NCBI GenBank assembly: GCA_023265315.1
Contig: JAHFUA010000009.1
Span: 1,443 to 43,916, forward strand
DNA length: 42,474 nucleotides
Direction of reading: 5' to 3'
DNA from: Acidobacteriota bacterium
GTDB taxonomy: Bacteria > Acidobacteriota > Terriglobia > Terriglobales > Acidobacteriaceae
Below the pieces are notes generated by a model. It was not told the DNA's origin and did no database searches. It was given only the letters and a program-made list of their open reading frames with translations. Below, in pieces: positions 35,939 to 42,474 of the stretch. The translations under genes were made by a program, and so were the position numbers. How positions within the stretch are numbered: the first letter of the stretch is position 1; each line of letters begins with the position of its first letter.

Positions 35939-36691
<753 letters not shown>

Positions 36692-36694
36692 TCG

Positions 36695-37249
36695 TCACCT
36701 CGTGTTCAGAACCTGGGAATAAGTTTGGAAGGCAGCGTCATCGAAGGCGACAAAGCGAACTGTGTTGACGTTCTTCGCGCGGGGGAGAGCCTCGCGAACC
36801 GCCCGGACGGCCACCTGGCTGGCGTCGGCCAGCGGGTAGCCGAAGATGCCGGTCGAGATCGCCGGGAAGGCGATCGACTTGAGCCCAAGCTCGTCGGCCA
36901 CGCGGATGGACTCGCGATAGGCGCTGGCCAGCGCTTCCGGCTCGCCGCTCGACCCGCCGGACCAGACCGGACCCACGGTATGGATCACATAGCGCGCCGG
37001 CAAGCGGCCGCCGCTGGTCGCCACCGCTTGTCCGGTCGCGACGCGGCCGCGCTCGGCACGCAGCTTGCGGCACTCTTCCGCGAGCGATGGACCGGCGGCG
37101 CGGTGGATGGCGCCACAGACACCGCCGCCCGGCAGCAGCTCGGAATTGGCCGCGTTGACGATGGCGTCGGTGGTCTCGCGGGTGATGTCGCCCTGGACGA
37201 GTTCAATCGTTTTGTCGGGCGCGAGCGCAATGCAGATCGGGGCATTCAT
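36695..37249 (-). CDS. Macrodomain ADP-ribose (O-acetyl-ADP-ribose) hydrolase-like protein
   Basis: The 184-residue protein is a complete macrodomain: VQGDITRETTDAIVNAANSELLPGGGVCGAIHRAAG, YVIHTVGPVW and FPAISTGIFGYPLADAS. The NAAN asparagines and GGGV(C/D)GAIH loop match the MacroD/YmdB group that removes ADP-ribose from proteins or deacetylates O-acetyl-ADP-ribose. The aspartate commonly following GGGV is cysteine here. The chosen ATG at 37249 avoids 23 extra residues that come from repeat DNA. It sits between pgk and tpiA, three bases from the latter, so it is co-translated with glycolytic enzymes. Confidence 0.92.
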   Translation of the reverse strand: MNAPICIALAPDKTIELVQGDITRETTDAIVNAANSELLPGGGVCGAIHRAAGPSLAEECRKLRAERGRVATGQAVATSGGRLPARYVIHTVGPVWSGGSSGEPEALASAYRESIRVADELGLKSIAFPAISTGIFGYPLADASQVAVRAVREALPRAKNVNTVRFVAFDDAAFQTYSQVLNTR

Positions 37250-37272
37250 GCAGGCATGAGACGGAAATACAT

Positions 37273-37368
37273 AGATCCCTCGTTTGCCCTCCCTTCGCAA
37301 GCTCAGGTCGGGCTGCACTCGGGATGACCCTCTTACAGAAGCACTGACTCCTGCCCTCTGACTCCCGA
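37273..37368. repeat. Partial TGTCAT-type repeat plus heptamer array after pgk
   Basis: From 37273, AGATCCCTCG is matched by CTCGGGATGAC at about 37318-37328, a shortened relative of the long inverted elements. Then 37341-37368 holds four heptamers (minus strand TCGGGAG, TCAGAGG, GCAGGAG, TCAGTGC) that start directly after the pgk stop codon. Confidence 0.6.
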
Positions 37369-38580
37369 CTACTTATTGGTCAGCGCTTCCACTCCCGGCA
37401 GCTTCTTGCCTTCCAGAAACTCCAGGGATGCACCGCCGCCGGTGGAGATATGCGTGATCCTGTCGGCCACGCCGGCCTTATGCACGGCGGAAACCGAGTC
37501 GCCGCCGCCGACGATCGAAATCGCCGGGCGGTTGGCCGCCACGGCGCGCGCGATGGCGTAGGTGCCGTGGGCGAACGGCTCCTGCTCGAAGACACCCATC
37601 GGTCCGTTCCACACGATGGTGCTGGCGTTCTCGATCTGCCCGGAGAACAGCGTCACCGTCTTGGGCCCGATGTCGAGGCCCATCTGCCCGGCCGGGATAG
37701 CGTGCCCTTCGGTGACGATGTGAGTCCTGGCGTCAGGCGTGATCTTGGCGGCGACCACGTGATCCACCGGCAGCAGGAATTTGATGCCGCGCGCCTTGGC
37801 CTGGCCGAGTAGTTTGTGGGCGAGGCCGAGTTTGTCGTTTTCGACCAGTGAATTGCCGATCTCCATCCCACGAGCCTTCAGAAAGGTGTAAGCCATGCCG
37901 CCGCCGATCAGCAGCGTGTCCACTTTGTCGATGAGGTTCTGGATAACAGGGATCTTGTCGCTGACCTTGGCCCCGCCCAGGATGGCAACGAATGGCCGGC
38001 CGGGATGGTGCAGCACCCGGCCGAGATAATCGAGCTCCTTCTGCATGAGCAGCCCGGCGGCCGATTTCTTGACGAACCTGGTGATGCCCACGGTGGAAGC
38101 GTGCGCGCGGTGCGCTGTGCCGAAGGCGTCGTTCACGTAGCAGTCGGCCAGCTTGGCAAGCTCGCGCGAAAAGTGCTCGTCGTTGGCTTCTTCCTCCGGG
38201 TGGAAGCGCAAGTTCTCCAGCAGCAGCGTCTGGCCTTTCTCCAGCTTCGAGGCCATTTCTTCCGCCTGCATGCCGATGCAGTCGGGCGCGAAGCCCACGT
38301 TGATGCCGCGCCGGATGCGCTCGTCCAACAGGTTGCGCAGGCGCTCCGCCGCCGGCTTGAGGCTCATCTTGGGGTTGGGTTTGCCCTGGGGACGGCCGAG
38401 ATGGGAGGCCAGCACCAGCCGCGCGTGATGGCGGACGGCATATTCGATGGTGGGGAGCGTTTCAACGATGCGGGTGTCGTCCATGACGCGGCCGCCGTCG
38501 TCCAGCGGAACGTTGAAGTCCACGCGCATGAACACACGCTTGCCCTCGAGGTCGAGGTCACGGATGGAAAGCTTGCTCAT
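37369..38580 (-). CDS. pgk: Phosphoglycerate kinase
   Basis: PGK makes ATP from 1,3-bisphosphoglycerate. The 403-residue protein has [16 protein letters not shown] at the N-terminus with substrate-binding arginine and aspartate, [31 protein letters not shown] and, in the nucleotide domain, [23 protein letters not shown] and VGGGDSV. The GTAHR version of the usual GTAHR/GVAHR loop is intact. The ATG at 38580 ([11 protein letters not shown]) gives the usual length; upstream residues in frame are read from the gapA end. It is 26 bases after gapA in the same orientation. Confidence 0.97.
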
Positions 38581-38606
38581 GAGGCCGACGACCTTATCCC
38601 AATTTC

Positions 38607-39617
38607 CTACAACCCCTTGCTGCCCAGGTAGTTGATGAGGTCGCGCACCCGGCAGGAGTAGCCCCACTCATTGTCGTACCAGGAGATGACCTTCACACAG
38701 TTGCCGGCGACCACGCGGGTCATGGGCGCATCCACGATCGAGGAGCGGGAATCGCCGCGGAAGTCCACCGAAACCAGCTCCTCTTCTTCATAGCCGAGAT
38801 ACGACGCCAAGCGGCCGCTCTGCGAGGCCTTCTTCATAGCCGCGTTCACTTCTTCCGCCGAGGTCTTCTTGTCTACGAACGCCACCAGATCCACCACCGA
38901 CACATTGGGCGTGGGCACGCGCATCGCGAAGCCGTCCAGCTTGCCTTTCAGCTCCGGAATCACCAGGTGCACCGCCTTAGCGGCGCCGGTGCTGGTAGGG
39001 ATCATGGAGACCGCGGCCGCCCGCGCGCGCCGCAAGTCCTTGTGCGGGAAATCGAGAATCACCTGGTCGTTGGTGTAGGAGTGGATGGTGGTCATGGTCC
39101 CGCTGTGGATGGTGAAGTTGTCGTGCACCACCTTGGCGATCGGCGCCAGGCAATTGGTGGTGCAGGAGGCATTGGAGATGATGTGGTGCCTGGCGGGATC
39201 GTACTTGTCCTCGTTCACGCCCAGTACGATGGTGATGTCCTCGTTCTTCGCCGGAGCGGAGATGATCACCTTCTTGACCGGGCCGCGCAGGTGCTTCTTG
39301 GCGTCTTCGGCGTTGGTGAAGCGGCCGGTGGATTCCACCACCACCTGCGCCCCCATCGACCCCCAGTCCAGCTTCGCCGGATCTTTTTCCGAGAAAACAC
39401 GAATGTTGCGGCCGTCCACCTGGATGCAGTCCTGGGCGTGCGTGATCTTGTTGGGCAGGTTGCCGAGGATCGAGTCGTACTTGAGAAGATGCGCCAGCGT
39501 CTTGGGGTCGGTGAGGTCGTTGACGGCGACGAATTCCAGGTTCGTGTCGTTCAGCGAGGCGCGCAGGATGTTGCGCCCGATGCGGCCGAACCCGTTGATG
39601 CCTACTTTGATGGCCAT
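38607..39617 (-). CDS. gapA: Glyceraldehyde-3-phosphate dehydrogenase
   Basis: GAPDH oxidises glyceraldehyde 3-phosphate with NAD and phosphate. The 336-residue protein opens [19 protein letters not shown], carries the catalytic C152 in [12 protein letters not shown], the base histidine in the TIHSYTND segment, the S-loop [20 protein letters not shown] and the end [13 protein letters not shown]. Aspartate 34 after VAVND is usual for NAD preference. The ATG at 39617 has GGAGGAAA ahead, the clearest ribosome-binding site in the region. It heads the gapA-pgk-macrodomain-tpiA series. Confidence 0.97.
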
Positions 39618-39680
39618 GTTTCCTCCGGAGTGTGAACAGAAGATCGGAAGAGCTGGGATGCAAACTTGAAATGCTAGCAT

Positions 39681-39857
39681 AAAATCGCTCTCGGCTTTTT
39701 GACTGTTGAAAATCGCTCTCGGCTTTTGGCTCTTGGCTCTTGGCTTTTGGGCAGGGTAGACGAGGGAGATTGCATCCCTGCTTCCGGGCAGCCGGAGTTT
39801 GACGAAGAAGAAGCCAAAAGCTAACAGCCAAGAGCTAAGAGCCAATAGCCAAGAGCT
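39681..39857. repeat. Direct and inverted heptamer arrays between gapA and the kinase gene
   Basis: AAAATCGCTCTCGGCTTTT occurs at 39681-39699 and again at 39709-39727. GGCTCTT-type heptamers continue to 39750, and from 39811 to 39857 the complementary series runs in register (GCCAAAA, GCTAACA, GCCAAGA, GCTAAGA, GCCAATA, GCCAAGA). The two arrays face each other across about 60 bases and together occupy most of the 264-base gap between divergent genes. Confidence 0.85.
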
Positions 39858-40731: not shown

Positions 40732-41334
40732 TCACTTCAGGTACTGCAGCATCTCCTTGAAGGCGGGGCCGCTGGAGGTGTGCAGCAGCTCGTAGATCAT
40801 CATTTCCGTCGAGGAGATGACGGCGCCGGCGGCGCGCATGCGGTCCAGGCCGATCTTCCAGTTCCACTCCGTGCGCGAACTGACGGCGTCCGAGGCCACG
40901 TGGACGATGTAGCCGCTGTTCAGCGCTCCCAGCGCCGTCTGCATGACGCAGATGTGCGATTCCATGCCGCACACCAGCAGGGTGTTGCGGTTGCCGGGTA
41001 GCGACTTCACGCGCGCGCAGTAGGCGTCGTTGTTGAAGCAGCCGAACTCGATCTTCTCCAGCGGCGTAACGTTGGGCAGGAGCGAGGCGATCTCCGGGAT
41101 GGTCGGGCCCAATCCCTTGGAGTACTGGGTGGAGAGCAGCACCGGGAGGTCGAGGATCTTGGCCAGCCGGATCAGCAACTGCGAGTTGCGCACCATCCGC
41201 TCCTTCTCGAAGATGGGCGGCAGCAGTTTCTCTTGGATGTCCACCACGGACAACGCGCAGTGGCGCGCCTCGAGCGGAGTGCGGGCGATCTCGGCGGCGT
41301 CCGCCGGCAGAATTGGGGTTGCGGTAGATGCCAT
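40732..41334 (-). CDS. Isochorismatase-family cysteine hydrolase
   Basis: The 200-residue protein has the catalytic triad expected for the family: D32 in LSVVDIQEKLL, a lysine in LEKIEFGCF (about residue 94) and nucleophile C129 in VCGMESHICV. YcaC-like and nicotinamidase-like members share this layout; the zinc-ligand set of nicotinamidases is not evident, and the short loop favours a YcaC-type hydrolase of unknown substrate. The ATG at 41334 has GGAGG four bases ahead, better than an in-frame start at 41352. It converges with the kinase gene. Confidence 0.9.
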   Translation of the reverse strand: MASTATPILPADAAEIARTPLEARHCALSVVDIQEKLLPPIFEKERMVRNSQLLIRLAKILDLPVLLSTQYSKGLGPTIPEIASLLPNVTPLEKIEFGCFNNDAYCARVKSLPGNRNTLLVCGMESHICVMQTALGALNSGYIVHVASDAVSSRTEWNWKIGLDRMRAAGAVISSTEMMIYELLHTSSGPAFKEMLQYLK

Positions 41335-41463
41335 GGCGCCTCCTGATAGCAAATAGCGGTTGGAGGCTCCATTCTACGCGCGAGTGGCGCGTCGAGCATA
41401 ACAAACCGGGAACCGTGGCCATAACGGGAACTCTGGCGGTCTGGGTCCGCCGCGGCGCTCGGG

Positions 41464-41539: not shown

Positions 41540-41613
41540 TGCCCCCTCGTTCAATGGTAGGACAGCTGACTCTGGATCAGCATATCGGGGTTCGAATCCC
41601 TGGGGGGCAGCCA
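41540..41613 (+). tRNA. tRNA-Gln (anticodon CUG)
   Basis: This is a 74-base tRNA with CCA encoded (41611-41613). The acceptor stem TGCCCCC pairs with GGGGGCA, the anticodon loop is CTCTGGA between GCTGA and TCAGC, and the T-loop GGTTCGAATCC is regular. A recombinase gene ends 16 bases downstream, so the 3' end is probably an attachment site, but the tRNA itself is intact. Confidence 0.97.
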
Positions 41614-42474
41614 ATCTTTTCAGCAACATCTACTGCACCCATTCGGGACTGTGGGGACTTTTGTGGGGACTCTCGCGGGCCAGCAACTCTGCATGCTCGC
41701 GATTGCGGTCCTCCACTGCCTTCCGGATCTGCTCCAGGCCCGGATGCTGGTAGCGCATGGCCGTCTGCGCGTCCGAGTGCCCCAGCGTCTTCATTAGCGC
41801 CGCCAGATTCCCGGTACGCTCCAGGGCGTCCGTCGCGAACGTATGCCGGCAGGAGTAGAGCTTGACCGACTCGGGAAGCCCGGCCTTGGCTCTCGCCTCC
41901 AGCCACTGCTTCGCCACGTTCGTGATATGCCCGCTCCGGGAGTGTTCGGACGCAAACACCCATTCGGACGTCTGCGGGCGAGAGCGAAGCGCCCGCATCA
42001 CCCGTTCGCTCATCGGCACGTACCGCCGGGAGTTTTTCGTCTTGCCGAAGGGAATGAAGATGGTCCCCTTCAGCCAGTTGATGTTCTCCCAACGCAGCCG
42101 GAAGACGTCCTGCGGACGCATGCCGGTGTCCTGCATGAGGAGAATTACGTCCCGTAAGGGTTGGCGTGCTGCCAGAAGCAGCTGCGCTTCCGCCCCTGGG
42201 CCAATGAGCGCCTCCCGGCCCAGCTCCTTGCGGAGATGGATACGGGGCACGTTGCGGACGAAACCCCATTCCATCGCCTTCGAAAGCATCCGCCGCAATG
42301 TCCGCAGGGCGACATTGGCCTTCGCGGGCGAACCGGAAAAGCGCAGGACGTCCGCCATGTCCGGCGCGATCTCGTCCAGCTTCATTCCCGCTATTGCCGT
42401 TTTTTGGAGCATGTCCCAGCCGTATTGGTAGTACCGTTTGGTGCTCTGTTCCAGCGTGCTTGTCCCGGCCCACT
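41594..42474. mobile_element. Left edge of a putative element integrated at tRNA-Gln
   Basis: The 3' part of tRNA-Gln (from the T-arm to CCA at 41613) followed directly by a tyrosine recombinase pointing towards it is the standard arrangement at the end of tRNA-integrated islands and prophages. The second attachment site and the cargo would lie beyond the right end of the window, so extent and type are unknown. Confidence 0.6.
41630..42474 (-). CDS. Tyrosine recombinase (phage-type integrase), 5' end outside the window
   Basis: At least 281 residues are present and the frame is open through the right edge; residues before MLQKTAIAGM (WAGTSTLEQSTKRYYQYGWD) look like normal core-binding sequence, so the ATG at 42412 is internal. 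The catalytic domain shows the first arginine in DTGMRPQDVFRLRW, K in GKTKNSRRYVP, the second box LYSCRHTFAT (the common histidine two before the cysteine-arginine is tyrosine), the HxxR-associated histidine in LGHSD and the nucleophile tyrosine in AMRYQHP. The stop at 41630 is 16 bases from tRNA-Gln. Confidence 0.93.
   Translation of the reverse strand, partial: WAGTSTLEQSTKRYYQYGWDMLQKTAIAGMKLDEIAPDMADVLRFSGSPAKANVALRTLRRMLSKAMEWGFVRNVPRIHLRKELGREALIGPGAEAQLLLAARQPLRDVILLMQDTGMRPQDVFRLRWENINWLKGTIFIPFGKTKNSRRYVPMSERVMRALRSRPQTSEWVFASEHSRSGHITNVAKQWLEARAKAGLPESVKLYSCRHTFATDALERTGNLAALMKTLGHSDAQTAMRYQHPGLEQIRKAVEDRNREHAELLARESPHKSPHSPEWVQ

Follow-up and report, generated by a model that had tools for sequence, protein, structure and literature searches.

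In the attL site of phage lambda, the core is followed by tandem P' arm sites (three units) and then by the 3' end of the integrase gene. In the attP sites of the mycobacteriophages CrimD, Giles and L5, short putative arm-type repeats are paired around the core, and the repeats are direct in L5 and Giles (PMC3203893). ICEMlSymR7A has an attP with five IntS arm-type sites around the core, that are bound by the N-terminal domain and are all needed for efficient integration (PMC11963761). The KplE1 prophage has P' arm sites in attL beside a tRNA (argW) core, and IHF was present in the in vitro reaction (PMC2951348).

We analysed a stretch of 42,474 nucleotides (the window) from an Acidobacteriota bacterium, that corresponds to bases 1443–43916 of contig C12 (43,916 bases); the contig ends at the window's last base. 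At this end, an intact tRNA-Gln(CUG) gene is followed by the 3' coding end of a convergent tyrosine integrase gene, and that coding end contains a tandem pair of short repeats. Judged from the sequence, this end of the window is very likely to be the attL (the integrase-side end) of an element integrated at tRNA-Gln(CUG), with the tandem pair acting as arm sites for the integrase. The order of core, arms and integrase 3' end is the same as in lambda attL, and many relatives have an IHF-like site between core and arms. Unlike lambda attL, the window shows two arm units, not three, and no recognisable IHF site.

The locus shares paired short arm-type repeats with the mycobacteriophage attP sites, but the repeat sequences differ from the window's; moreover, in the K1 phages the core lies 5' of the integrase gene with P3/P4 inverted, whereas in the window the 3' end of the integrase gene faces the core and the pair lies in its coding end (PMC3203893). 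The arm-site consensus given for ICEMlSymR7A, TGKTGGTATC, is also unlike that of the window (PMC11963761). KplE1 is similar in having P' arm sites by a tRNA core, but the integrase promoter overlaps attL there, in place of the 3' end found in the window (PMC2951348). The tRNA-integrated islands described for Islander likewise have a tyrosine integrase by a regenerated tRNA gene and a displaced tRNA fragment, which is seen here in relatives; unlike in those islands, the displaced fragment of the window element was not found in the assembly (PMC4383910). By such published arm-type pairs, the window junction is a known kind of structure (PMC3203893, PMC11963761).

The tRNA-Gln junction and the integrase fragment

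ARAGORN identified an intact tRNA-Gln(ctg) gene at 41540..41613 on the plus strand, which we take to be the regenerated target. Sixteen bases (41614–41629) separate its end from the stop codon of the integrase ORF, that occupies 41630..42472 on the minus strand, encodes the C-terminal 280 amino acids and is open at its 5' end. The original prediction had described just such a tRNA, followed 16 bases later by the end of a tyrosine recombinase with its 5' part beyond the window, and this was borne out by ARAGORN, the ORF and Pfam. Since the contig stops at the window's last base, it is the contig itself that lacks the 5' part, and not only the window. GC content did not change across the junction. 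An isochorismatase-family gene (40732..41352, minus strand; PF00857), homologues of which lie upstream in relatives, was taken as the chromosomal left flank. Further to the left (35939–39845), a glycolysis cluster was observed to contain a macro-domain-like ORF, flanked by phosphoglycerate kinase and triose-phosphate isomerase, the names being our reading of the ORFs.

The integrase fragment matched Phage_integrase PF00589 at 8.1e-26 (91.3 bits, cut-off 27.1), as well as the integrase families phrog_1 (1.2e-47) and phrog_216 (1.3e-28). When it was aligned with 21 relatives, the catalytic positions R, K, HxxR, H/W and Y were found to be kept, in TGMRP, GKTK, YSCR, LGH and MRYQH, which we take to be the catalytic motifs of tyrosine recombinases; the first H of the set is Y in the window integrase and in 17 of the 21. 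The aligned relatives have an N-terminal extension, and the window contig stops before that region.

Matches to the integrase at E ≤ 1e-10 were obtained in 56 of the 120 genomes searched (own genome counted), the best relative being 56% identical. Of 20 loci retrieved with related integrases, 16 show the integrase gene convergent with a tRNA gene (Met, Arg, Lys, Val or Leu) and facing its 3' end. Matches also occurred in 128 phage records and 229 plasmid records, all below 60% identity, and at 28–40% identity in five Bifidobacterium loci. A protein search of viral contigs with the window integrase gave no pattern match.

The assembly (95% complete, 182 contigs) was searched for the rest of the element. 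The 27-mer of the tRNA-Gln(CUG) 3' end (T-arm to CCA) occurs once in the assembly at ≤3 mismatches; this absence of a second copy is not refuting, because the contig ends at the junction, inside the integrase. No second arm pair was found elsewhere in the assembly at ≤3 mismatches, the far end lying outside the assembled contig. The N-terminal region of a related integrase, used as query, found no other match in the assembly, and one other PF00589 match was present, on contig C5. Hence, with no second tRNA 3' end, arm pair or N-terminal match in the assembly, the rest of the element was not found. The far end and the cargo of the window element are not readable, since the contig ends at the window edge.

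The tRNA-Gln(CUG) site in relatives

Stretches around tRNA-Gln(CUG) were fetched from 36 family relatives, five of them with less than 1 kb of downstream DNA. The junction DNA as query gave matches in 57 of 61 genomes (own genome counted), mostly to the tRNA alone. Copies of the tRNA 3' half were found on the same contig in six of the 36 relatives (G013, G014, G017, G024, G025 and G026), 1.5–22.8 kb away, the duplicated stretch running from tRNA position 29–31 to about 75 at 87–100% identity; copies on other contigs were found in G020, G032 and again G014. On the basis of this duplication, the attachment core is placed at 41569..41614 (plus strand), comprising the tRNA 3' half from the anticodon stem. 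The tRNA 3' end had been expected to form the core, and the duplicated 3' half agrees with this; the proposed extent, from T-arm to CCA, was too short.

When the 36 stretches were searched by tblastn with the window integrase, the only match beside the tRNA was 26% identical (G020), and a 28%-identical one was obtained at the far copy in G026. Other integrases adjoin the tRNA in G024, G020 and G013, and by our reading G017 and G032 carry probable integrase remnants there. Outside the 36, G058 has, next to a copy of the tRNA-Gln 3' half, an apparent integrase remnant with 53% identity to the window's over 72 residues. In that genome (L129:9375-10757), two of these copies lie roughly 1 kb from each other, and each adjoins what seems to be left of a different integrase; old insertions may have piled up there. 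Thus, among the 36 family relatives compared, the tRNA 3' half is repeated in some and the recombinase is not conserved at this site in all; the site is followed by other integrases or by none. The predicted element edge at tRNA-Gln is supported by this, and a mobile element was probably inserted at the tRNA-Gln end.

A homologous ORF upstream of the tRNA was shared in 73 of 528 locus pairs (the window shares one with 12 other loci), and downstream in three of 465, a count from which the window is absent for want of DNA on that side; this break in synteny supports an element edge, although 14 of 33 loci had no upstream ORF in common with any other. An isochorismatase homologue lies upstream of tRNA-Gln(CUG) in nine of the 36 fetched sites and downstream in one, G001, and an AAA_33 neighbour gene lies on the downstream side in G024 and G028, indicating that the flanks are rearranged in some relatives.

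According to Pfam scans, the DNA between the tRNA and the second copy varies among relatives. Between the copies, G024 carries genes for a terminase and for a tail protein (10 of its 16 listed ORFs scanned); G014 has zinc-type dehydrogenase, MIP channel and cytochrome-type genes and no integrase (10 of 23 ORFs scanned); and G017 has an acetyltransferase gene. The cargo of these elements says nothing on that of the window element. It may be noted that one gene of the G024 element (L073:15547-16560) weakly matched the JetC defence-protein model (8.9e-6, 21.8 bits), and that the stretches inside the far tRNA-half copy look alike in G025 and G017 (L072:12864-15551 and L074:15545-17083), although their near ends differ.

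A tandem pair with 12-bp spacing

Between the tRNA and the integrase core domain, inside the integrase 3' coding end, the window carries the perfect tandem pair TGTGGGGACT-TT-TGTGGGGACT (41650..41671, units 41650–41659 and 41662–41671; no strand assigned), a candidate for P'-arm integrase-binding sites. The units are identical at 10 of 10 positions at lag 12, and shuffling the bases of the 150-base junction 300 times gave no repeat as good at lags 9–14. The same spacing was observed in other elements. For 24 tRNA junctions, selected for an integrase or a second core at the tRNA (two versions of the set differ by G026 and G014), the mean repeat score was 7.08 at lag 12, against 2.67–4.25 for the remaining lags in the range 4–60; lag 12 was best or joint-best in 18 and not best in six. 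For 58 integrase 3' ends, kept from 63 ORFs with a phmmer match in 68 loci, the corresponding means were 6.40 at lag 12 and 3.55–4.50 at other lags from 5 to 30, with lag 12 best or joint-best in 28 and not best in 30; in one of the 58, L126, masked bases make the scores too high at every lag.

In the window, the two units are part of the coding frame, as they are in relatives such as L116, L123, L144 and L148; in at least eight others (L113, L114, L115, L117, L118, L119, L121 and L127), they come after the stop codon. That it is found either inside the frame or past the stop codon points to a DNA site. A second pair was found inside the far end in three of the five complete elements tested. 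In G024 and in G029, whose element sits at tRNA-Leu, the near-end pair recurs 126–185 bp inside the far core, one G024 unit having a mismatch; in G013, a short pair (6-base motif, lag 11) is present on both sides. In the other two, G017 and G025, the near-end motif was not refound at the far end. These 12-bp-spaced pairs are best read as P'-arm integrase-binding sites, and it is on this reading that the window junction would be an attL.

The pair type of the window is also found with L144 and L148, the integrases of which are only 31–33% identical to the window's. In L144:600-1877, L148:2267-3547 and L137:1-1355, the integrase and a tRNA gene (Met, Ser and Arg, respectively) share a strand, with the integrase lying upstream of the 5' end of the tRNA gene; this layout is the reverse of the window's, though L144 and L148 share its pair type.

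In IMG/VR, the window-type pair was found in three viral contigs with one free spacer letter and in eight with three; one exact relative-type pair, searched for in viral contigs, gave no match. In L178 and L179, the window-type pair stands on both sides of a tRNA-like core, and same-strand integrases end near the pair. The second pair is 244 bp away with two mismatches in L178 and 237 bp away with one mismatch in L179. The core between the pairs is a Leu-like tRNA 3' half in L179 (library match); in L178 it appears to be a His-like tRNA 3' half by our own reading, the library match and ARAGORN naming no tRNA. An attP that has not integrated should show just such a layout of pair, tRNA-like core, pair and integrase. 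In L182, the second pairs are weaker, and the integrase is encoded on the opposite strand, some 1.4 kb off. In the stretches examined, a tRNA-Asp-like sequence (79%) occurs close to the pair in L183, L184 and L185, which have no second pair and no integrase, and L180 and L181 have no second pair, tRNA-like stretch or integrase.

The TGGGCACA pair was found in 48 viral contigs. By raw counts, a second pair lies within 450 bp (≤4 mismatches) in 13 of these and is exact in nine; among them, L203 is a long repeat array, and L190 and L213 give identical distances. A tRNA-like stretch lies within 350 bp in eight of the 48 contigs, and a profile search placed an integrase in the locus in 21, same-strand and ending near the pair in eight (also raw counts).

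Arm-site divergence was compared with that of the integrase domains for 21 integrases, hand-picked for a readable pair and N-terminus. The rank correlation with N-terminal-domain divergence was 0.63, and the partial value given the catalytic domain was 0.40 (0 of 2000 permutations as high); the correlation with the catalytic domain was 0.57, with a partial value of 0.24 (p 0.013). Divergence of the arm site is thus correlated with that of both domains, more closely for the N-terminal one.

A site for IHF was also sought, using what we take to be the IHF consensus. After junctions with a lag-12 score below 6 were dropped, 22 sequences were scored, and 12 of them contain an IHF-like site, which fits the consensus at 9 of 9 positions in six relatives and at 8 of 9 in another six. 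The assembly has four PF00216 (HU/IHF) genes. An IHF site between the core and the arms of the window was unsupported (5 of 9 positions, under the shuffled mean of 5.65).

Probable integration at tRNA-Gln and its alternatives

What is directly seen, namely the window's tRNA, integrase fragment and repeat together with their counterparts among relatives and viral contigs, is consistent with the following course of events. The integrase would have catalysed recombination between the element's attP and the 3' half of the target tRNA, the crossover presumably falling in the core. The element's own tRNA-half copy would have restored the tRNA, and the host copy would have been displaced to the far end. 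The window integrase presumably has the N-terminal arm-binding domain of its relatives, which would dock on the tandem TGTGGGGACT pair as the catalytic domain works at the core. A second arm pair should then lie a short way inside the far end, and the window copy may be mobile.

We considered it unlikely that the integrase end and attL are what survives of a decayed element, the rest of which has been deleted. This has apparently happened in G025, where similarity to the window runs across the tRNA into the first junction bases (90% over 131 query bases) and one TGTGGGGAC unit is retained, with no such integrase detected by tblastn in the fetched stretch; against such decay in the window, the integrase frame is open for 280 codons to the contig end, the catalytic positions are conserved and both repeat units are perfect. 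The repeat could also be a feature of the protein tail (SPHKSPH) and no DNA site, as its position within the frame in the window, L116, L123, L144 and L148 would allow. This is very improbable in view of the pairs past the stop codon in at least eight relatives and of the second pair that some elements have on the opposite side of the core or at their far end.

The absence of a far attachment site from the assembly would also suit a resident chromosomal recombinase, standing beside the tRNA by chance and outside any mobile element. Such a resident is scarcely credible, since in the stretches of the 36 family relatives the only match at this tRNA is the 26%-identical one of G020, the relatives of the window integrase sit at other tRNA genes, and the NCBIfam Xer models score far under their cut-offs on it. 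Integration of a mobile element at tRNA-Gln(CUG) is preferred.

The element edge itself is ordinary. The arm-site signature is widespread, similar pairs being present in related elements and in viral sequences, and the 12-bp-spaced pair provides a simple sequence handle on attL and attP sites in fragmented genomes. It also connects the N-terminal domain of an integrase with its presumed DNA target. We give about even chances to a broader proposal, that integrases of a broad group commonly dock at direct short arm-site pairs with 12-bp spacing on each side of a tRNA core, and that the motif varies with the N-terminal domain. In that case, attP and arm specificity would be readable from sequence, and distant integrases (about 26–33% identical) could share one arm signal.
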